From contig CAIKDP010000023.1 in the NCBI GenBank assembly GCA_903826205.1, forward strand, positions 1 to 38,549: a DNA stretch of 38,549 nt, read 5' to 3'. This DNA is from Akkermansiaceae bacterium. GTDB taxonomy: Bacteria; Verrucomicrobiota; Verrucomicrobiia; Verrucomicrobiales; Akkermansiaceae. Within the stretch, counting starts at the first letter, position 1. Every line of letters starts with the position of its first letter. A program made the position numbers and the translations under genes. Under the pieces are notes generated by a model. The model saw only the letters and a list, made by a program, of their open reading frames with translations. It had not been told where the DNA came from and searched no databases. Shown in pieces: positions 1-30,236 of the stretch.

Positions 1-166
1 CAGGAATGTGGTGGCTCCTTAGCGCTGCCGCGCCCACGCTTAAGGAGCGACGACATTCCTGTCGTCGTGCGGAAGGCTTGCCCATGAGCAGAGCTCTCGG
101 CGCGCACTCATGCACCATTCTTACGCCACCACCACAGGAATGTGGTGGCTCCTTAGCGCTGCCGCG
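1..166. repeat. Tandem REPIN-like repeat, period 134 bp
   Basis: The first 32 bases recur at 135-166, so two units lie in tandem 134 bp apart; the left unit is cut by the window edge. The complete unit, 41-155, is 115 bp. It starts with TAAGGAGC and a CGACGAC/GTCGTCG hairpin and ends with a CCACCAC/GTGGTGG hairpin (129-148) and CTCCTTA. Between them is a third inverted repeat built on CATGAG...CTCATG. Both units are followed by GCGCTGCCGCG, which suggests that the duplication included this flank. The same 115-bp architecture recurs at 28213-28327. I see no protein coding here. Confidence 0.85.
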
Positions 167-360: not shown

Positions 361-3300
361 ATGTATCTAAAGACTCTGGAAATCCACGGATTCAAGTCGT
401 TCGCCGACAAGACCGTGTTTGAATTCGCCGAAGGTGTCACTGGCATCGTCGGGCCCAATGGCTGCGGCAAATCCAACGTGGTGGATGCGATCCGCTGGGT
501 GTTGGGCGAAACCTCCGCCAAAGCCCTCCGCGGGGGTGAAATGGCCGACGTCATCTTCAACGGCACCGAGCGCCGCAAACCGCTGGGCATGGCGGAAGTG
601 ACGCTGACCATGGCCGATTGCGAAGGCCCGCTGAAAGTGGATTTCAACGAAGTGGCTATCACCCGCCGCGTGTTCCGTGATGGCCGGTCGGAATACCGCA
701 TCAATGGCACGCTCTGCCGCCTCAAGGACATCAACGACTTGTTCATGGACACGGGTATCGGGCGCACCGCCTACTCGATCATGGCCCAAGGCCAGATCGA
801 CCAGATCCTTTCCTCCAAGCCGGAAGAACGCCGCGCGGTGTTCGAGGAAGCCGCCGGCATCACCAAGTTCAAGCGTGAGAAAAAAGACGCCCTGCGCAAA
901 CTCGAGTACACCGAGGCCAACCTGTTGCGCGTCTCCGATGTGCTCGCCGAACAAGAGCGCCGCATCAATTCGCTCCGCCGCCAGGTCGCCAAAGCCCGCC
1001 GCTACCAGGCGCTTGCCGCCGACGTCCGCGTGCTCGACACGCATCTGGGCCACCGGCGCTTCGTGGAACTCACCGCCGAGCGTGCCGAGCTCACGGTTTC
1101 CATCCGCGGCTTGGAAGTGCGCGACACGGAGTTGGAGATGCAACTGCCCGCCAAGGAGGCCGCGGTGGCCGAGGCGCGCGCCGCCGCCCGTGCGTTTGAA
1201 GGCGAACTGGCCGAACTGCGCCAACGCCTCAACGAACACCGCAACGCCCTCAACTCCGCCGACGGCCGCATCGCCTTCAACGACGAACGCAAAGCCGAAC
1301 TCGAATCCCGCATACGCCAAAACCACGAGGAAATCTCCACGACCCGCGAAAAGCTCGCCCAACAGGAATGCGAGGTCAACGCCGCCACCGAGGCACTCGA
1401 CCAACTCCACCGCCGCATCGCCGAGCAGGAAATCCTCCTCACCGACCAGGAGACCCACACCCGCAGCACCCGCGATGAGCGCGAACGCATCGAAGCATCC
1501 CTGCGTGAAAACCGCGGCGAAGCGACCCGCTGCCAAACCCTCATCGCCTCGATGCAGGCGAAAATCGAGAGTGCCCTCGCCCAACTCGAGGGGACCCGCG
1601 AACGCACCCGCCAACTCGCCGACGAAGAACAACGCCTCACCCTTGAACTCGAGGAATTCCGCGCCGAACAAGCCCGCATCGCCGGCGAGGTCGAAGCCAC
1701 CGGCGCCCAACTCGCCGCCCTCGAGGAAACGTTCCATGCCGCCGAGCGCGCCTATCAACACACCCGCGGCGACCTCGATGCCGCCCGCACCGCCGCCATT
1801 GAGACTAACAAAATCCTGGCCCAGCGCGCGGCCCGCCTGGATGCGGTGCGCCAACTTGTGGAAAGCGGCGAAGGGTTTGAAAAGGGCACCCAAAACGTTC
1901 TAACCGGCCTTGACCAACCGGAGCATTTCAAGCCGGCCATCCACGGCGTGCTCGCCTCGTTCATTGTGGCGGATAACGTTTGTGCCCGCGCGGTTGAGGC
2001 CGCCCTTGGCGCCAATCTGCAAGCGATTCTGGTCCGGGATCAAGCGATCGCCGAGACCATCATCCAGCGCCTCACCGAGAAAAAACTCGGCCTCGCCGCG
2101 GTGCTGCCCGAATCATTCATCGGTCATGCCAGCGCCACCCAGATGGAAACCGTCCCGAAAGGCGCCATCGCCTGGGCCTTGGACCGCGTGAAATCCGACA
2201 AACGCGTGGCGGCCGTCATCGGTCGCCTGTTGGAAAAGGTGCTCATCGTTCCGGATCTGGGCACCGCCCTGCAGCTCCGGCCGACCCTGCGCGGCGTCAC
2301 TTTCGCCACGCTGGCGGGCGAGTTGTTAGCCGGCGAAGGCATGCTGTGCGGCGGCGTGGCCGCGGAAGGCAGCACCTCGGTCCTTGAACGCGGCAACGAA
2401 GTGCGCGCCCTCCAGACAGAGGTCGCCGAGCTCACCCAAGCCGACGAGACCGCCCGCCTCCGGGTCACCCAGTTTGAAACCCAACTCGAAGAGCTGCGCG
2501 AAGAAGTCGAACTCTCACGCGAACGCCTGCAACGCCAGAAAGTCGATCTCTCAACCCTCCAAGGCCAGCTCAGCCTCGCCACCCGCGAAGTGGAAAACTT
2601 CGAGACCAAACTCGAAAACGTCCGCTGGGAACGCGGCGAACTCGAGACCCGTGAGCTGGCCGCCGCCGCCAGCCGCCAACACCTCGAGACCGAACTGGCC
2701 GCCGCCCGCGAACGCCTCGAGGCCCTCGAAACCGAAAGCCGCCGCCTGCAATCCGAATCGGACTCGGCCGCCCACCGCGAACGCGAACTTGGCGAGACAC
2801 TCAACGAAATCCGCACCGTCCTGGCCGTGGAGCGCCGCGCCAAACAAGCCGCTGAGGAACAACAAAAACCGATGGAGGCCCGCCTTGCGGAACTGCGCGA
2901 AATCTCGATCCGCCGCGAAACCGAGATTTCCTCATTCGACCAGCGCATTGAGGCAGCCATCGCGGAAAACGCCCGCCTCGCCGAGGAATGTGAAACCCAC
3001 CGCGCGGAAGTCGAGGATCTGCAAGAGGAAATCGAATCCCGTGCCGGCGGCCGCACCGCCCTGATGGAAACCATCGAAGCCGCGGAAATCGCCCTCGCCA
3101 CCCTGCGCCGCGACCACGCCCGCGTCTCCGAACAAAAAGGCCGCGAGGAAATCGCCGCCACCAAGCTCGACCTCCACCTGGAAAATCTAACCAACACGAT
3201 CCAGGAGCGCCACCAGGTCGATCTCGCCGTCTTCCAACCGGACGCCCACGCCCTGCTCAACAGCATCGCCTCCCAAAAGGCATTGCAAGCCCGCAGCGGA

Positions 3301-4170
3301 CGCCAAACCCTCATCGCCGGCCAGGACGGCGAGGACAATCACGACGAGGAAATGCCCATCATGGTGGTCGATGCCACCCGCAGCGATGACGCCGCGGAGC
3401 TCCCCGGCGCCATGACCGGCGAGCCGGACTGGGCGTTTGTCGAATCCATCGTCACCGACATCAAGCGCCGGCTGGATGCCATGGGCCCGGTCAACCTCGA
3501 TGCCATCGAGGAATTCGAGGAACTCGAAGAACGCCATGGTTTCCTGCGCAATCAGCACGACGACCTCGTCAAATCCAAGGCCGAATTGCTCGAAGTCATC
3601 GAACGCATCAACGTGGAAACCCAGCGCCTGTTCTCCGAGACCTTCGCTCAGGTCCGCCTCAATTTCCAAGACATGTTCAAGGAGCTCTTCGGCGAAAAAG
3701 GCCAGGCCGATCTGCTGCTCCTTGATGCCAACGATCCGCTGGAATCCGGCATCGACGTCATCGCCAAACCGCCCGGCAAAAAACTCCAATCCATCACGCT
3801 GCTCTCCGGTGGCGAACGCTCGATGACCGCCGTGGCCCTGTTGTTCTCCATCTACATGATCAAGCCCAGCCCGTTCTGCGTGTTGGACGAACTCGATGCC
3901 CCGCTTGATGAGTCCAACATCGGGCGCTTCGTCAAAGTGTTAGACCGGTTCATCGATCGCAGCCAGTTCATCATCGTCACCCATTCGAAGCGCACCATGG
4001 CCCGCGCCGATGTCATGTATGGCGTGACCATGGAGGAATTCGGTGTCTCCAAACCTGTCGGCATGCGCCTCACCCAGGGCAACTTTATCCACGCTGCCGA
4101 CACCAAGCCGGAAGCCAAGCCGGAAGCCAAAACCGCCGCCCAAAAAGCCGCCCTCCAGCTCGATGGCTGA
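361..4170 (+). CDS. smc: Chromosome partition protein SMC
   Basis: This is the SMC ATPase of the condensin complex that compacts and segregates the chromosome. The chosen ATG gives the classic N-terminus MYLKTLEIHGFKSFADKT; the reading frame is open further upstream but has no SMC similarity there. Visible parts are Walker A GPNGCGKSN (about 31-39), a first coiled coil, a hinge at roughly 500-680, a second Glu/Arg-rich coiled coil, the MGPVNLDAIEEF motif (from 1041), signature LSGGE (1148-1152) and Walker B FCVLDELDAPLDE (D1176, E1177). The length of 1269 aa is slightly above the usual 1150-1200. The excess lies in an acidic, low-complexity insert at about 980-1022 and a C-terminal tail rich in KPEAK repeats. 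There is no Shine-Dalgarno sequence before the start. ScpA and ScpB are not in the window. Confidence 0.97.
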   Translation: MYLKTLEIHGFKSFADKTVFEFAEGVTGIVGPNGCGKSNVVDAIRWVLGETSAKALRGGEMADVIFNGTERRKPLGMAEVTLTMADCEGPLKVDFNEVAITRRVFRDGRSEYRINGTLCRLKDINDLFMDTGIGRTAYSIMAQGQIDQILSSKPEERRAVFEEAAGITKFKREKKDALRKLEYTEANLLRVSDVLAEQERRINSLRRQVAKARRYQALAADVRVLDTHLGHRRFVELTAERAELTVSIRGLEVRDTELEMQLPAKEAAVAEARAAARAFEGELAELRQRLNEHRNALNSADGRIAFNDERKAELESRIRQNHEEISTTREKLAQQECEVNAATEALDQLHRRIAEQEILLTDQETHTRSTRDERERIEASLRENRGEATRCQTLIASMQAKIESALAQLEGTRERTRQLADEEQRLTLELEEFRAEQARIAGEVEATGAQLAALEETFHAAERAYQHTRGDLDAARTAAIETNKILAQRAARLDAVRQLVESGEGFEKGTQNVLTGLDQPEHFKPAIHGVLASFIVADNVCARAVEAALGANLQAILVRDQAIAETIIQRLTEKKLGLAAVLPESFIGHASATQMETVPKGAIAWALDRVKSDKRVAAVIGRLLEKVLIVPDLGTALQLRPTLRGVTFATLAGELLAGEGMLCGGVAAEGSTSVLERGNEVRALQTEVAELTQADETARLRVTQFETQLEELREEVELSRERLQRQKVDLSTLQGQLSLATREVENFETKLENVRWERGELETRELAAAASRQHLETELAAARERLEALETESRRLQSESDSAAHRERELGETLNEIRTVLAVERRAKQAAEEQQKPMEARLAELREISIRRETEISSFDQRIEAAIAENARLAEECETHRAEVEDLQEEIESRAGGRTALMETIEAAEIALATLRRDHARVSEQKGREEIAATKLDLHLENLTNTIQERHQVDLAVFQPDAHALLNSIASQKALQARSGRQTLIAGQDGEDNHDEEMPIMVVDATRSDDAAELPGAMTGEPDWAFVESIVTDIKRRLDAMGPVNLDAIEEFEELEERHGFLRNQHDDLVKSKAELLEVIERINVETQRLFSETFAQVRLNFQDMFKELFGEKGQADLLLLDANDPLESGIDVIAKPPGKKLQSITLLSGGERSMTAVALLFSIYMIKPSPFCVLDELDAPLDESNIGRFVKVLDRFIDRSQFIIVTHSKRTMARADVMYGVTMEEFGVSKPVGMRLTQGNFIHAADTKPEAKPEAKTAAQKAALQLDG

Positions 4171-13361: not shown

Positions 13362-13746
13362 GCCTTCACCGCGCCCGAGGTGCCCGGCGATGGCTCCGCC
13401 CTGGTGAGCGTGTCAGACTCGACCGCCCGGCCTTCACCGTGCCCGAGGTGCCCGGCGTGACGGCTCCGCCCTGGTGAGCGTGTCAGACTCGACCGCCCGG
13501 CCTTCACCGTGCCCGAGGTGCCCGGCGTGACGGCTCCGCCCTGGTGAGCGTGCCCGACTCGACCGCCCGGCCTTCACCGCGCCCGAGGTTCCCGGCGATG
13601 GCTCCGCCCTGGTGAGCGTGTCCGACTCGACCGCCCGGCCTTCACCGTGCCCGAGGTGCCCGGCGATGGCTCCGCCCTGGTGAGCGTGTCCGACTCGACC
13701 GCCCGGCCTTCACCGTGCCCGAGGTGCCCGGCGTGACGGCTCCGCT
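13362..13746 (+). repeat. Tandem array of 68/70-bp units
   Basis: Five full units and one partial unit begin at 13362, 13430, 13500, 13570, 13638 and 13706. Each starts GCCTTCACCG and ends TCGACCGCCCG. Units are 68 or 70 bp long depending on whether the middle reads GGCGATGG or GGCGTGACGG. The unit length is not a multiple of three and the frame is broken, so it is not a coding repeat. Within each unit TTCACC and GGTGA can pair. Mutations are shared between non-adjacent units, which indicates repeated unequal exchange. Location beside the element's right end and helicase suggests an iteron-like origin, a packaging signal or a recombination substrate. Confidence 0.9.
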
Positions 13747-13898: not shown

Positions 13899-13970
13899 TG
13901 CCCCCGGCGTGAATCGAACACGCATTTAAGGTTTAGGAAACCTCCGTTCTATCCATTGAACTACGGGGGC
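13899..13970 (-). tRNA. tRNA-Arg (anticodon CCU)
   Basis: On the minus strand the sequence folds as a cloverleaf: acceptor GCCCCCG/CGGGGGC, D-stem GTTC/GAAC, anticodon stem GAGGT/ACCTT with loop TTCCTAA (anticodon CCU, reading AGG) and T-stem GCGTG/CACGC with loop TTCGATT. The discriminator is A and CCA is not encoded. Its 3' part is repeated at 6993-7041, so this gene is the integration site of the element. The element supplies the sequence directly downstream of the tRNA 3' end. Confidence 0.95.
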
Positions 13971-23972: not shown

Positions 23973-25346
23973 TCACTTCAAATCCGCCAGTGCCTGCAAC
24001 GCGAGTTTGCGCGCCTTGGGTTGGTTGAACTTGGGATCGGCGGCCGTGATGAAATCGGCTTTGGCGGCGTCCCGGCGGCCGAGGGCGAGCTGGGTGCGGC
24101 CGCGATTGAAGATCGGGTAGGCATCTTCGGGCGCCAACAGGATGGCGGCCTCATAGGCGGGAAGGGCCTCCGCCGCCCGTCCGAGAACCAGCAGACAGTC
24201 GCCGCGGCGGTTCTGCGCCTTGGCGGTGAGCGCGGATTTCTGCGCGTGCCCCGGCGGCAGGCACACGCCCAAGGAGTCCAGCACGAGTTCGCAGGTGTGC
24301 ATGGCGGCCTCGACCTTGGCTGAGGGCTCGCTGGTTTCCTTGAGGTTTTCCTTGGCGAGCTCCAGCAGGGTGTCCAGCGGGGCGGCGGCGTAATCGCCGG
24401 GCCCCCGGCTGGCGGCGGTGAGCTTGAGGGCGGCGATGCAATCGACGGCCTTGCCCGCGGCGGCCAGCTTGTTGATGGCAGCCGGCGTGGGTACGACCAC
24501 CAACCCGGCTTTCGGTGCTCCCACCGTGGCGTCTGCCGCCACGCCACCCGCGGCGGCGGGGCCGGCAAGATAGATGTCCTCGCCGACGAGTCGGGAGTAT
24601 TCGGCGGGAATCTGCGCGCCGGCGCTGCGTTCCATGACGCCGGCCCGCGTGCGTTTGAAGACCTGCTCGATGGTGAGGCCGGGGGTGCGCAGGTGCTTGA
24701 GCCACTCCTCGGTGTAAAGGCCGTTGGTGCCATCGCCATCTTGCGCGGTGTGCCCGGCATCGGTGGCAAATGCGATGAGCGAGCCGGCGGGCGGCTTCAT
24801 TTCCGCGAGCCCGCCGGGGTTGGCCACGTCGCGGGTGCGCGGGTTGCGGGCCACCGGCGTGCTGCGGCAGGCATCGAGAATGACAAGGTTGCAACGTCCG
24901 CCGGCGGCACTCATCTCGGCGATAACCTGTTCCGCGTTGAAAAGCTTGGTTTCCGCCAGCAGGCGCAGGGTGGTGTCGTCGGCTGCGCCGGGCTGATAGC
25001 CGGATTTCACTGGAATGAGGTAGTTCGAGCCGGCGACCTGGATGCCATGGCCGGCGTAGTAAAACAGGGCCACTTCCGCGCCGCGCAGTTTGCCGCGAAA
25101 CGCGGCCACCGCTTCCAACAATTCGTCACGGGTGAGGTTGTGCTCCTCGATCACGGCAAATCCAAGCCCGCGCAAGGTTTTGGCGACGGCCTTGGCATCG
25201 CTCACCGCGTTGCGCAGCGGTCCCACGCCCGTCTCATATTTGGCATTGCCAATCACCAGCGCCGTGCGCGGGCTGGGGGTCGGCGCGGCCGCCGCACCCG
25301 CAAGCGCGAGACCCGGAATGACGAACAACGCGAGGCGAATGGTCAT
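23973..25346 (-). CDS. Secreted caspase-like (peptidase C14) protein with TPR-like C-terminus
   Basis: A 457-aa protein with signal peptide (TIRLALFVIPGLALAGAAA) and a caspase/metacaspase p20-like domain: RTALVIGNAKYETGVGPLRN, ALFYYAGHGIQ with catalytic His100, and LVILDACRSTP with catalytic Cys160. A later TIEQVFKRTRAGV segment is typical of bacterial caspase-like proteins. The C-terminal 100 residues hold tetratricopeptide-like helices (KAQNRRGDCLLVLGRAAEAL, YPIFNRGRTQLALGRRDAAK). The predicted export places it in the periplasm. It is divergent from an NlpC/P60-like lipoprotein gene 114 bp away. The catalytic dyad is intact, so it is likely an active cysteine protease; the target is unknown. 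Confidence 0.88.
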   Translation of the reverse strand: MTIRLALFVIPGLALAGAAAAPTPSPRTALVIGNAKYETGVGPLRNAVSDAKAVAKTLRGLGFAVIEEHNLTRDELLEAVAAFRGKLRGAEVALFYYAGHGIQVAGSNYLIPVKSGYQPGAADDTTLRLLAETKLFNAEQVIAEMSAAGGRCNLVILDACRSTPVARNPRTRDVANPGGLAEMKPPAGSLIAFATDAGHTAQDGDGTNGLYTEEWLKHLRTPGLTIEQVFKRTRAGVMERSAGAQIPAEYSRLVGEDIYLAGPAAAGGVAADATVGAPKAGLVVVPTPAAINKLAAAGKAVDCIAALKLTAASRGPGDYAAAPLDTLLELAKENLKETSEPSAKVEAAMHTCELVLDSLGVCLPPGHAQKSALTAKAQNRRGDCLLVLGRAAEALPAYEAAILLAPEDAYPIFNRGRTQLALGRRDAAKADFITAADPKFNQPKARKLALQALADLK

Positions 25347-25460
25347 GGCCGTCAGCCTGCAAGGCGCGCCCCCGCAAGTCAATCTCAAGCAAGGTCGCCC
25401 ATACTCCGCGAGGCGATTCAAGGGATTGACCGCGCGCCACTCACCTTGCATCCTCCGCCC

Positions 25461-26288
25461 GTGAGAATTCTTTCCTTGCCCTTGCTGCTGCTCGTCACCG
25501 GCTGCGCCGTACCGCCACCGCCCACGGTGCCGCTCGTGCCGGGCGACGCCAACGCCCCCTCGCAGCTCACGCCCAGCGAGTCGATCGCCATCGCCCAACG
25601 TCTGGCCACCCACCCGTGGCGGCCGTTTTCTAACAACATGCTGCACGCCAAGGACCAGGCCGGCATTCGGGTCAACACGCCGGACGTCAGCCACGAACCG
25701 GGTTTGCCGCGCAAGGGGTGGTGGATTCCGGGCGAGGTCAACACCGGCATTCCCTACAAATGGGGTGGGTTTGATGACCCCGCCACGTTTGATGCGGCCA
25801 TCGCCAAGGGGCTGGCCGGCGGTGATGTTTCCTCTCCGGAAAAACGCCGGGCCGACAACACCGCCGTGAGCGCTCAGGCGGCCGGGGTCGATTGTTCCGG
25901 CTTCGTCTCTCGTTGTTTGAAGCTGCCCACCGTGCATGACACCACCCAACTGCCCGCCGTCTGCACGGAATTGCCCAGCGCGCGCGACTTGCGGCCGGGC
26001 GACCTGCTCAACATCCCGCACCGCCATGTGATTCTCTGCGCCGGTTGGTCCAATCCCGAGCACACCTGGATCTACTTTTACGAAACCGGCGGCGCTCCCG
26101 ACTATTGGAAACCCGGCCTCAAACAAGCGCCGTTGGACGCCCTGCTCGCCCTCGGCTACACACCGCTGCGCTATCGCGGCATGGCCCGCGAGGTCGCGCC
26201 GGACAGCAAGTCCGCCAAGGAAGTCCTCACCCGCGGCGTCAAAGCCACCGCCATGGCCGTGCCCCAACCGACCATCGGCGAGCCGTGA
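25461..26288 (+). CDS. NlpC/P60-like lipoprotein
   Basis: A 275-aa protein starting at GTG with a lipoprotein signal (RILSLPLLLLVTGC). A cysteine-peptidase-like core follows: GVDCSGFVSRCLKLP (catalytic Cys), ARDLRPGDLLNIPHRHVILC (catalytic His). This is the Cys...RPGDLL...H arrangement of NlpC/P60 cell-wall hydrolases. A long N-terminal region (about 30-110) with GIPYKWGGFDDPATFDAAI precedes it. It would act on peptidoglycan peptides at a membrane. It has no Shine-Dalgarno sequence; CATCCTCCGCCC lies directly before the start. Convergent with the next gene across a perfect palindrome. Confidence 0.82.
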   Translation: MRILSLPLLLLVTGCAVPPPPTVPLVPGDANAPSQLTPSESIAIAQRLATHPWRPFSNNMLHAKDQAGIRVNTPDVSHEPGLPRKGWWIPGEVNTGIPYKWGGFDDPATFDAAIAKGLAGGDVSSPEKRRADNTAVSAQAAGVDCSGFVSRCLKLPTVHDTTQLPAVCTELPSARDLRPGDLLNIPHRHVILCAGWSNPEHTWIYFYETGGAPDYWKPGLKQAPLDALLALGYTPLRYRGMAREVAPDSKSAKEVLTRGVKATAMAVPQPTIGEP

Positions 26289-26316
26289 AACCACAGGGCA
26301 CCCACTCCCATTCTAA

Positions 26317-26358
26317 CGCGACAATCCGGTGGTCCGATCGGACCACCGGATTGTCGCG
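26317..26358. terminator. Perfect 42-bp palindrome between convergent genes
   Basis: The sequence centred on CCGATCGG (26334-26341) reads identically on both strands from 26317 to 26358, with arms of 21 bp and no loop. It lies between the NlpC-like gene (ends 26288) and the SGNH gene (ends 26371), so it can terminate both transcripts. It lacks a T-tract. Its length and perfection exceed an ordinary terminator. Confidence 0.6.
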
Positions 26359-27328: not shown

Positions 27329-28195
27329 ATGAAACCATTCCTTACGACATTGTTAGTTGCCGGCAGTCTGCTTTCCGGGCAGGCGGCGCCGATGCCAACC
27401 CTGATCATCGACGGCCAAAACAATCACGATTGGAAAGCCACCACTCCCGTGATGGGCAAGGTGCTGGAGGCCAGCGGCCTGTTCACGGTGGAGGTGGCCA
27501 CCGCCCCGGATGCCAAGAACCCGGCACTGGCGGACTTCAAGCCGGATTTTGCCAAATACAAGGTGATTGTGATGAATTACAACGGCGCGATGTGGGGGGA
27601 AGCCACGCGCAAGGCGTTTGAGGAATACATGGCCGGCGGTGGTGGTATGGTGGTGGTGCACGCCGCCGACAACTCGTTCACCGCCTGGCCGGCCTACAAT
27701 GAGATGATTGCGGTCGGCGGTTGGTATGGCCGCAACGAAAAGTCCGGTCCGTATCTGCGCTGGCGGGATGGCAAGCAGGTGTTGGATGACAAACCGGGTC
27801 CGGCCGGCCATCATGGCGCGGGACATGAGTATGTGCTGGACACCCGCGCGCCGCAGCATCCGATCATGGCCGGACTGCCGGCACAATGGATGCACGCATC
27901 GGACGAGTTGTATGATTTCATGCGTGGGCCGGCCAAGAACGCGACGATTCTGGCAACGGCATTCGCCGACCCGAAGTTTGGCGGCAGCGGCGAGCAGGAA
28001 GCCCAAGTCATTGTGATCAACTACGGCAAGGGCCGGGTGTTTCACCTCATGCTCGGCCACGGCCCGGAGGCGATGAAATGCGTCGGCTTCATCACCTTGC
28101 TGCAACGCGGCACCGAATGGGCGGCCACCGGCAAGGTGACCCAAAAAGTGCCGGCGGATTTTCCCAAGGCGGATGCGGTGAGCTTGCGCCAGTGA
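27329..28195 (+). CDS. Secreted ThuA-domain protein
   Basis: A 288-aa protein with signal peptide (KPFLTTLLVAGSLLSGQAA) and a ThuA-like glutamine-amidotransferase-fold domain: LIIDGQNNHDWKATTPVM, KYKVIVMNYNGAMWGEATRK, GGGGMVVVHAADNSF and GKGRVFHLMLGH. ThuA proteins are linked to trehalose and other sugar metabolism, and secreted forms abound in Planctomycetes and Verrucomicrobia. The catalytic role is not established. It lies upstream of a rhamnosidase-like gene on the same strand, separated by a REPIN. Confidence 0.9.
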   Translation: MKPFLTTLLVAGSLLSGQAAPMPTLIIDGQNNHDWKATTPVMGKVLEASGLFTVEVATAPDAKNPALADFKPDFAKYKVIVMNYNGAMWGEATRKAFEEYMAGGGGMVVVHAADNSFTAWPAYNEMIAVGGWYGRNEKSGPYLRWRDGKQVLDDKPGPAGHHGAGHEYVLDTRAPQHPIMAGLPAQWMHASDELYDFMRGPAKNATILATAFADPKFGGSGEQEAQVIVINYGKGRVFHLMLGHGPEAMKCVGFITLLQRGTEWAATGKVTQKVPADFPKADAVSLRQ

Positions 28196-28212: not shown

Positions 28213-28327
28213 TAAGGAGCCACCACATTCTTGTGGTGGTTGTGGAGGCAAGGTCCATGAGTACGCGCCGAAGACGTTGTTCATGGGCCGTTCCTCCACT
28301 CGACGACAGGAATGTCGTCGCTCCTTA
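28213..28327. repeat. REPIN-like 115-bp element
   Basis: The element runs from TAAGGAGC to CTCCTTA. It has a CCACCAC-N6-GTGGTGG hairpin at the left (28220-28239), a CGACGAC-N6-GTCGTCG hairpin at the right (28301-28320) and a central inverted repeat CATGAG...TTCATG with GCGCCGA conserved. The ends are inverted copies of each other over 27 bases with a few differences. It has exactly the length and order of the element at 41-155, in the opposite orientation. It sits between two secreted-enzyme genes. Confidence 0.85.
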
Positions 28328-28403: not shown

Positions 28404-30236
28404 ATGACACAGCAAACAGTGAATCGGATGTGGCGGATGGCACTTGTGACCGCTGCCTTGATGACAGGTGGTGCCGGCGCGCAAGACGCCGCCATACCGT
28501 CCGTCAACGGGCAAACCGTCTTCACCCTCAAGATGACGCCCGTGGCACCCAAGGCGATCGTGTCGTCACAGGCGGTGGCCGATGCCGCCAAGCTGTTGGA
28601 AGGCAAGCCGGTGCTTTTTCAACCGGGGTCAGACGCGGCGGAAGTGGTGTTAGATTTTGGCCGTGAAATTGTCGGCACGGTCCGTTTTGGCGTGCGAGCG
28701 GAGGCCCCGTCCAAGCTTGAGATCCGCTACGGCGAAGCGCTGCAGGAAGTCCACCGCAACAATGACTACGCAGCCCGCTGGTACAAACGGCCGATCGATC
28801 ATCTGGAGGTGAAGGCCGGGCCGCAGGAACTGCGCAATTATGGCCGGCGGGCGTTTCGTTACCTGCGGTTGATCGTGCCCGCCGGTGCCGCGCCCATCAC
28901 GCTGGAAAGCGTGCAGGCGACCTTGCAGCATTATCCGGTCAACGAGGCGGGCGCCTTTTCCTGCTCGGATCCGCAACTCAATAAAATCTGGGAGCTCGCC
29001 GCCTACTCGACCAAGCTGTGCATGCAGCAATACTATGAGGACGGCATCAAGCGCGACGGCTTGCTGTGGATCTCCGACTATCGGGTGCAATATTTGTGCA
29101 ACGCCTTGTTGTACGGCGACCGCGATCTGGCGCGCAAGAGCCTGTTCCTGATGGCCGCCAGCCAAAACCCGGATGGCTCCCTGCCGGCCCAGGCCAGCCG
29201 CGCCGGTGCCAGCCAACACCCATCTAACATCAACTACATGCCCGGCATCCCGCGTGGCGTCAACAACTGGATTTTGGTCAACTACTGTCTGGACTACATC
29301 GGCTGTCTGCGCGACTACTACCGGTTCACCGGCGATAAGGATGCGTTGACGCAACTGTGGCCGGCGGTGCAGAAACTGCTGCCCTTTCTCCTGAAACAAG
29401 AGCCGGCCAACCTCAAGCCGTTGGGCAATTTCATCACCGACGGCCGCTACGGAGAAACGTGGTGGGGGTCCCACGGTGTGTTGGAAATGCAGTTTGCCAT
29501 TGCCATGCAGGATGCGTCCTACCTCGCGCAAGTGATGAATGACGATGCGCTGCGCCGCCAGTGCGATGACTACCTGCCGCGCCAACGCGAACGCATCATG
29601 AACACCTACTTCGATAAGGACGAACAGTTCTTCCTCGATGAGGCCGGCAAGAAACTCAGCACTTCGTGGCATGTCAATTCGTTCAGCGTACTGGCCGGCT
29701 TGGGGGACTACGCCAAACAGGCGCAACAACTCGACAAGACCTCCTCACAGGTGCGGCCGGCAACGGCCGGCTTCATGTTGTATTGGACGATGGAAGCCAA
29801 GTTCCGGGCGGGCATGACCGAGGCCGCCCTCAATGACATCCGCAAAATCTATGGCCACATGCTCAGCTTCGGCGCCACCACCACATGGGAAAAATGCGAC
29901 CTGACGGTGGGGGATCACCCTAACGAAACCGACGCGGCCGGCAGCCGCTGCCACGGGTGGTCGGCTGGTCCGGCCTATCTGCTGCCAGCCCACGTGTTAG
30001 GGGTGCAACCCGCGGAGCCGGGCTTTGCCTCCGTTGTGATCGAGCCCCGGTTAGGTGATTTGCAGTGGGCGGAGGGTGTTGTCCCCACGCCCAAAGGGCT
30101 CATCCGCTTGCGCTGGGAGCGTGGCTCCGCCCTGAGCGGATCCGTCACCCTGCCCGACGGCATGACTGGCGAAGTGAAATTGCCCGGCCGCAAAATCGCG
30201 CTCAAGGCGGGAGAGAATCGGATCAAGGCGGACTGA
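28404..30236 (+). CDS. Secreted alpha-L-rhamnosidase-like glycoside hydrolase (GH78)
   Basis: A 610-aa exported protein with a signal peptide (about 1-27). The N-terminal beta-sandwich contains VVLDFGREIVGTVRF and LEIRYGEAL. An (alpha/alpha)6 barrel follows, with EDGIKRDGLLWISDYRV (212-228), the equivalent of the GH78 catalytic loop that carries the acid residue. A C-terminal beta-sandwich has RLGDLQWAEGVVPTPKGLIR. The length is shorter than many GH78 enzymes, lacking extra N-terminal domains. It would release rhamnose from plant or algal glycans. An in-frame ATG at residue 9 is an alternative start. CATCCTCCGCCC stands just upstream, as before the NlpC-like gene. Confidence 0.85.
   Translation: MTQQTVNRMWRMALVTAALMTGGAGAQDAAIPSVNGQTVFTLKMTPVAPKAIVSSQAVADAAKLLEGKPVLFQPGSDAAEVVLDFGREIVGTVRFGVRAEAPSKLEIRYGEALQEVHRNNDYAARWYKRPIDHLEVKAGPQELRNYGRRAFRYLRLIVPAGAAPITLESVQATLQHYPVNEAGAFSCSDPQLNKIWELAAYSTKLCMQQYYEDGIKRDGLLWISDYRVQYLCNALLYGDRDLARKSLFLMAASQNPDGSLPAQASRAGASQHPSNINYMPGIPRGVNNWILVNYCLDYIGCLRDYYRFTGDKDALTQLWPAVQKLLPFLLKQEPANLKPLGNFITDGRYGETWWGSHGVLEMQFAIAMQDASYLAQVMNDDALRRQCDDYLPRQRERIMNTYFDKDEQFFLDEAGKKLSTSWHVNSFSVLAGLGDYAKQAQQLDKTSSQVRPATAGFMLYWTMEAKFRAGMTEAALNDIRKIYGHMLSFGATTTWEKCDLTVGDHPNETDAAGSRCHGWSAGPAYLLPAHVLGVQPAEPGFASVVIEPRLGDLQWAEGVVPTPKGLIRLRWERGSALSGSVTLPDGMTGEVKLPGRKIALKAGENRIKAD

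Follow-up and report, generated by a model that had tools for sequence, protein, structure and literature searches.

A heterotypic 115-bp REPIN family with GGAG-tagged ends and a third arm in an Akkermansiaceae genome

The window analysed here, that is, the whole stretch of 38,549 nucleotides of an Akkermansiaceae contig, contains two copies of a palindromic element on opposite strands. Copy A is situated between the genes for a ThuA-domain protein and a GH78-type alpha-L-rhamnosidase, and copy B near the start of the contig, next to the gene for an SMC ATPase. The features are as follows.

1..40, minus strand: start of the next tandem unit, a truncated CC REP (1-21) and an array junction (22-40)
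41..155, minus strand: copy B of the 115-bp heterotypic REPIN
361..4170, plus strand: SMC ATPase, neighbour of copy B
27329..28195, plus strand: ThuA-domain protein, upstream neighbour of copy A
28213..28327, plus strand: copy A of the 115-bp heterotypic REPIN, CC hairpin on the left and GA hairpin on the right
28213..28219, plus strand: 5' side of the closing stem of copy A, TAAGGAG, with the GGAG tag directly 5' of the hairpin; its partner is 28321-28327
28220..28239, plus strand: left REP hairpin of copy A, CCACCACA/TGTGGTGG, 4-nt loop
28242..28299, plus strand: central third arm of copy A, stems 28242-28248/28293-28299 and 28252-28260/28281-28289
28301..28320, plus strand: right REP hairpin of copy A, CGACGACA/TGTCGTCG, 4-nt loop, of the type found at the flanks of the RAYT gene on contig C238
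28328..28352, plus strand: right-arm remnant of an outer 'frame' repeat (GGTGCCATCGGAGCCGAGTGAGTTA) beside copy A
28404..30236, plus strand: GH78-type alpha-L-rhamnosidase, downstream neighbour of copy A

Elsewhere in the window, a gene for a caspase-like peptidase C14 domain with TPR repeats (23973-26294, minus strand) adjoins a perfect 21-bp inverted repeat (26317-26358), and a 68-70-bp repeat in five tandem copies (13362-13745) lies not far from a tRNA (13899-13970, minus strand).

Copies A and B are 81% alike, and among the inverted pairs listed for the window theirs is the longest. A sequence-only reading of this DNA had described two oppositely oriented copies of exactly 115 bp with two different terminal hairpins (CCACCAC and CGACGAC types). 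All of this was borne out, and the anatomy proved to be fuller than that description. The minimum-energy single-stranded DNA structure predicted for both copies is a four-way junction, made of the closing stem TAAGGAG/CTCCTTA, the left hairpin, a two-part central arm and the right hairpin. Folded as DNA, copy A reaches -35.7 kcal/mol (z -8.3) and copy B -29.5 kcal/mol (z -4.6); the central arm is firm in copy A and weak in copy B, whose centroid retains little of it. Copy B belongs to a tandem array, with a further CC REP at 1-21, and the contig ends inside this array.

The own genome (5.57 Mb in 469 contigs) contains 62 exact REP cores of the right type, TAAGGAGCGACGAC, and 78 of the left type, TAAGGAGCCACCAC, against 0 and 1, respectively, for the reversed-pattern controls, and their abundance is therefore not due to chance. 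With up to five mismatches allowed, 184 REP hairpins were found in the fetched stretches of this genome, a biased sample of 85 stretches (213,327 bp) mostly fetched for having a hit. The same stretches hold 64 inward pairs, in which two inverted REPs make up one unit: 59 CC/GA pairs, four GA-variant pairs of 82 bp, two of which adjoin the RAYT gene described below, and one CC/CC pair. None of the 38 CC/GA elements whose gene context was counted overlaps a gene in our home-made prediction; the rest of the 59 lie near a stretch end or in a shared 500-bp bin, and two tandem pairs are still entered twice. The early identification of the element as a REPIN thus holds: it is an inward REP pair, intergenic, dispersed and present in many copies, and the genome carries a RAYT gene flanked by the right-end REP.

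The length of 115 bp, thought at first to be conserved throughout, characterizes the main class but is not universal: 31 of the 59 CC/GA pairs measure 113-116 bp (23 of them exactly 115), 14 measure 99-100 bp and 14 fall elsewhere between 58 and 209 bp. Deletion forms measure 99, 83 and 58 bp and have lost portions of the third arm. Judged by eye, 16 bp are missing from one side of the inner central stem in the 99-bp class, and the 58-bp form, with two copies at unrelated sites, consists of two hairpins with almost nothing between them; the third arm can therefore be no strict requirement. At the other extreme, five copies of 134-209 bp have the left hairpin loop enlarged by an insert (GCCTCGCTGCGCTCG...; C455:3899, C439:15073, C240:305, C167:14905 and C137:19440). 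The sequence-only reading was to fall if other copies had unrelated centres or variable lengths; the centres are related, and the lengths are partly variable. Tandem arrays, in which REP types alternate (C32, C433, C132, C291, C292 and C56), have as their unit the REPIN plus a short junction, of 18 nt in these six contigs, 13 nt in C205 and C307 and 19 nt at the start of the window. As several contigs start inside arrays, the copy number is a lower bound. A whole-genome search with a covariance model also recovered copies with one decayed end (C275, C51, C343 and C365).

The RAYT gene (C238:11054-11656) is intact, encodes 200 amino acids and lies on a different contig from the window. Its product has the HxH motif and the Tyr of a single-domain Y1 HUH transposase, scores 23.6 bits with Y1_Tnp (cut-off 23) and has as its best solved relative the E. 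coli TnpAREP (4er8, E 1e-4); with NCBIfam REP_Tyr_transpos it scores 59.1 bits, under the curated cut-off of 80. The gene is flanked on both sides by exact GA-type REPs, seven before it at 38-bp spacing and one after it, and two REPINs of 82 bp, built from variants of the right type, flank it as well; no hairpin of the left (CC) type was observed next to the gene. This genome has two further RAYT-like genes, on C224 and C423, with no perfect hairpin (stem of at least 8) within 500 bp, the upstream scan at C224 extending as far as the contig reaches.

The genome collection contains 28 related RAYT loci, from Akkermansiaceae, Akkermansia, Luteolibacter, Prosthecobacter, Rubritalea, Haloferula and unclassified Verrucomicrobia. 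The flanks of 27 loci, comprising 26 near-complete genes and our own (the partial genes at L239 and L240 being excluded), were scanned for tagged hairpins, with each palindrome scored on both strands and counted for GGAG and GTAG. Perfect hairpins (stem of at least 8) tagged with GGAG number 46 in 36,019 bp beside RAYT genes versus 2 in the remaining 144,701 bp of these loci, and they occur beside the gene in 17 of the 27 loci; the other ten have none by this strict rule, and some of these have one by a looser scan. Not a single GTAG-tagged perfect hairpin of this stem length was found beside the 27 genes, and one with a shorter stem occurs at L234. Hairpins with other tags number 61 beside RAYT genes and 28 elsewhere, many of the 61 presumably being the reverse view of the same palindromes. 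By their GGAG tag, our REPs and the tagged hairpins beside the relatives' RAYT genes fall outside the GTAG-/CGTC-tagged REP superfamilies.

The stems that flank the RAYT genes vary between genomes, often with two types on opposite strands, and in G037 both the right-end REPs and the RAYT-flanking REPs have TTA-type loops. The REP pattern is present in five of the seven genomes whose RAYT is at least 73% identical versus two of the 92 others, with the threshold set after looking and the own genome included. One genome, G059, has 19 covariance model matches and no close RAYT in an assembly that is 71% complete. In the alignment with 4er8, positions 94, 95, 100 and 104 of E. coli TnpAREP correspond to W, Q, D and R, respectively, in all 27 RAYT proteins, and 26 of the 27 have Thr at the H101 equivalent; the role of these positions is treated in the available part of PMC6006769.

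A genome-wide search and a covariance model, both proposed in the sequence-only reading, recovered the family and extended its layout to other genomes. The exact REP pattern was found in seven of 99 genomes, and the model, built from 23 own copies and used to score at most 37 candidates per genome, matched 20 of 99 at E 1e-6 or better, the own genome included in both counts; three of the 20 belong to other families of the order. In G054, G037 and G059, almost every inward pair read shows this CC/GA layout, at 114-117 bp; the exceptions are L194 of G037 (142 bp) and L186 of G054 (other stems). In more distant copies, the layout and the tag are common and most stems have changed.

The same reading took the conserved centre as a hint of a selected structure, a claim supported by the comparison between species but not by the copies of the own genome. 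In alignment A2, made of the 23 own copies that measure exactly 115 bp, differences amount to 1.5% in the left hairpin, 5.6% in the right hairpin and 26% in the centre, where stems differ by 18-20% and loops by 33-44%; the near-identity of the end hairpins is partly a matter of selection, as the copies were collected by REP patterns, which lowers the hairpin figures. Covariation among these copies does not exceed that of shuffles, whose score matched it in 87 of 500 cases, there is no pairing excess, and four pairs changed on both sides versus 2.1 in shuffles (36 of 500 as high). Over four species the signal is weak, the score being matched by 4 of 500 shuffles and the both-side changes by 81 of 500, and relatedness alone can yield such a result. 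For 37 chosen copies from 12 genomes (alignment A4), the covariation score is 0.295; shuffles give 0.093, with none of 500 reaching the observed value, and slid controls give 0.087 or less. A caution is that 22 of the 37 copies were found only by the pairing-rewarding model, which inflates covariation and leans towards structure; two G025 copies were also matched by plain BLAST. In this set, 24 of 39 pairs changed on both sides (15.1 in shuffles), including five of seven and six of nine in the central stems, with some G-U pairs. Since all five helices show compensatory change, the structure is conserved more than the sequence across the 12 genomes, in line with the fold predicted for the window copies as single-stranded DNA.

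The statement in that reading that classical REPINs have variable centres fits a part of the literature. The available excerpts describe the spacer as highly diverse (Bertels 2021, PMC8049555) or less conserved than the REPs (Bertels & Rainey 2011, PMC3116915); on the other hand, the latter report that spacer length and hairpin formation are kept and that compensatory changes are common, and in the consulted portion of Di Nocera 2013 (PMC3733652) conserved spacers are a rule of thumb for this type of dimer.

These observations are what a REPIN-RAYT model predicts, and the 115-bp element is likely a non-autonomous REPIN that folds as a single-stranded DNA cloverleaf and is copied in trans by the RAYT on C238. 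The closing stem would bring together the two ends, each with a hairpin that directly follows a GGAG tetranucleotide, and the folded spacer, as a third arm, would hold the ends at a fixed distance. The RAYT would then cut and paste the 115-bp unit, with GGAG as the putative guide sequence for cleavage. The third arm may have been kept because the folded strand serves as the RAYT substrate. Several observations count against this account: no CC-type hairpin next to the RAYT gene, no covariation above shuffles within the own genome, deletion forms with a reduced third arm, G059 with model matches but no close RAYT, ten RAYT loci that lack a GGAG hairpin by the strict rule, and, as described below, no strand bias and no clean empty site.

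A different account arises from the flanks. Copies are often alike for about 50 nt on the left, ending in GAGTAACGTGGAAGCGA, and about 35 nt on the right (CCATCGGAGCCAAGTTAGTCGGGAGG), and the strings GAGTAACnTGG and CCAAGTTACTC of this frame can pair, imperfectly in the own genome. It is conceivable, if unlikely, that the mobile unit is a palindromic frame of about 200 bp moved by another enzyme, with the REPIN a passenger in its loop. In favour of this, 9 of 51 copies have both frame sides above the 99% shuffle level and 17 have one (51 of the 59 CC/GA pairs have enough flank for the tally). In the loci read, the frame holds the 115-bp REPIN in G054, G037 and G059 as well as in the own genome (G000), and in loci of other genomes and some of G059 its place is taken by unrelated palindromes or just a bare hairpin is present. 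The joined flanks have matches in 12 of 99 genomes; the own genome has 26 at E 1 or better, none of which crosses the junction by more than two bases, and reading showed one of the 26, C277:12457, to be a frame that is nearly empty. However, 25 of the 51 copies have neither side by this strict cut-off, although at least nine of the 25 lie in tandem arrays, where a frame could hardly be seen. Within the 113-116-bp class, 10 of 27 are without a frame above the same level, at least three of the ten in arrays. Moreover, the array unit is the REPIN plus a short junction and not the whole frame, and the sharpest conserved edges are the REPIN ends. The REPIN and the frame are thus two repeats, often nested.

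The REPIN apart, a second dispersed palindromic repeat (AGCACCAGAACCCG...GAGTAACTT / AAGTTACTCGGGAGG), with variable loop cargo or none, was noted at L298, L301, L303, L316 and other loci, and in the own genome at L282 (C277:12457). On the minus strand of L298 (G057), two matches to YrlA (Y RNA-like), at 1639-1755 (64.1 bits) and 1377-1477 (38.4 bits), stay below the gathering score of 69.

A broader view, possible but doubtful, is that hairpin tips of nested palindromes are landing sites and that a RAYT clade using GGAG as its guide acts on the cloverleaf REPIN in a strand-directional way. A palindromic element would settle at the hairpin tip of another, with tips exposed as single strand preferred: the REPIN would have done so in the loop of the wider-spread frame, and a third insert in the CC hairpin loop of five copies. 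As one REPIN end matches the RAYT and the other does not, the substrate might be strand-directional. IS200-type transposition might be expected to leave a strand bias, and the GC-skew test gave no support for a direction, as the element strand coincided with the G-rich one in 18 of 46 loci (p 0.18). Four orthologues of the ThuA gene (in G035, G028, G037 and G018) are followed by no REP within 1.5 kb downstream; these loci were rejected as clean empty sites, as the next gene (GH78) was not found there.

The conserved centre had also been taken to hint at an RNA or protein-binding structure. A structured RNA kept for the host (a bidirectional terminator, an mRNA 3'-end stabiliser or a small RNA), with mobility secondary, appears quite improbable. 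Copy A does fold strongly as RNA (z -9.0), the cross-species compensatory changes include G-U pairs, and the median distances to the predicted neighbouring genes are 104 and 120 bp. Yet there is no clear orientation preference, by counts, among the 33 elements with both neighbours predicted (same/opposite 11, opposite/opposite 9, opposite/same 7, same/same 6), and Rfam has no match over the element, in the window or the loci scanned, or over the frame in the loci scanned; on these grounds a cis-regulatory RNA was rejected. Tandem arrays, nested inserts and deletion forms are also more typical of mobile DNA. RAYT-mobilised DNA is therefore the better reading, and a folded single strand as RAYT substrate would suit the structural part of that claim better than a cis-acting RNA. 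It is even less probable that the element is a BIME-like nucleoid element binding gyrase or another DNA-architecture protein: the alternating inverted REPs in tandem arrays resemble the BIMEs of E. coli, and binding of IHF or gyrase is described for some of these (PMC2817692, available part), but nothing points to a particular protein.

The kind of element is known. In the excerpts at hand, the REPINs of P. fluorescens SBW25 (PMC3116915) are likewise inward REP pairs in intergenic positions, with a conserved spacing, a spacer that forms a hairpin, compensatory changes and a RAYT of their own; they form one long hairpin, whereas ours measures 115 bp, carries a GGAG tag and has a third arm set apart between two unlike end hairpins whose order is fixed. 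E. coli BIMEs with their Y and Z REPs and TnpAREP (PMC2817692, PMC8266576, as excerpted) are alike in having two REP types per unit, tandem arrays and, which we also count as a likeness, a RAYT gene flanked by two REP types; the tag there is GTAG and the stems are bulged, unlike the 8-bp stems without bulge behind GGAG here. The GTAG-/CGTC-tagged REP dimers of PMC3733652, which in the part available include those of Opitutus terrae from the same phylum, resemble ours in outside tags (HH dimers), conserved or structured spacers and heterodimers. Compared with the TnpAREP subclasses of Quentin et al. 2018 (PMC6006769, available part), the proteins here keep HUH and Tyr and the equivalents of W94, Q95 and R104, and have D at position 100 as in subclasses 2.5 and 2.7; the canonical guide there is GT[AG]G, or CnGA in class 3, in contrast to GGAG here, with Thr at the H101 equivalent in 26 of the 27 proteins. 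The string GGAG is absent from the main texts of both PMC3733652 and PMC6006769.

Conserved spacers, heterodimers, a RAYT between two REP types and compensatory change have thus been described already, as far as the available parts of PMC3733652, PMC3116915 and PMC2817692 go. In the REP/RAYT literature searched, as far as its texts were available, we found no GGAG guide, no REPIN with two end types in fixed order and a separate third arm that persists across species, and no nesting. The new details are the tag, the two unequal ends and the conserved third arm. The hairpins of the RAYT relatives are tagged GGAG where most described REPs have GTAG. The family extends REPINs and RAYTs to a lineage whose putative guide tetranucleotide is a different one, and Thr in place of His at the H101 equivalent correlates with GGAG in place of GTAG. 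The RAYT-REP pairs, with stems that differ by genome, constitute a natural series in which guide recognition is directly testable, and the third arm, preserved between species through compensatory change, raises the question of what a REPIN spacer is for.

A separate observation concerns RAYT-like Y1_Tnp domains that lie in frame, intein-like, inside long ORFs of conserved enzymes. The cases in the own genome (G000) are alanyl-tRNA synthetase, methionine synthase and IspG.

L256:792-4571, minus strand: enzyme ORF with Y1_Tnp domain, contig C439
L257:1-3534, plus strand: enzyme ORF with Y1_Tnp domain, contig C360
L258:3308-6217, minus strand: enzyme ORF with Y1_Tnp domain, contig C294

Among relatives, 18 of 20 further loci read, all picked for long open frames (L364-L381 of L364-L383), have such an in-frame domain, in leucyl-tRNA synthetase (9), the large chain of carbamoyl-phosphate synthase (3), HsdR-like proteins (3), Eco57I-type methylases (2) and adenosine deaminase (1). 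A literature search on RAYT-like domains inside conserved enzymes found nothing relevant. The Y1_Tnp scores of the alaS case and of L372 are just under the cut-off of 23. These domains may be more surprising than the REPIN finding itself.
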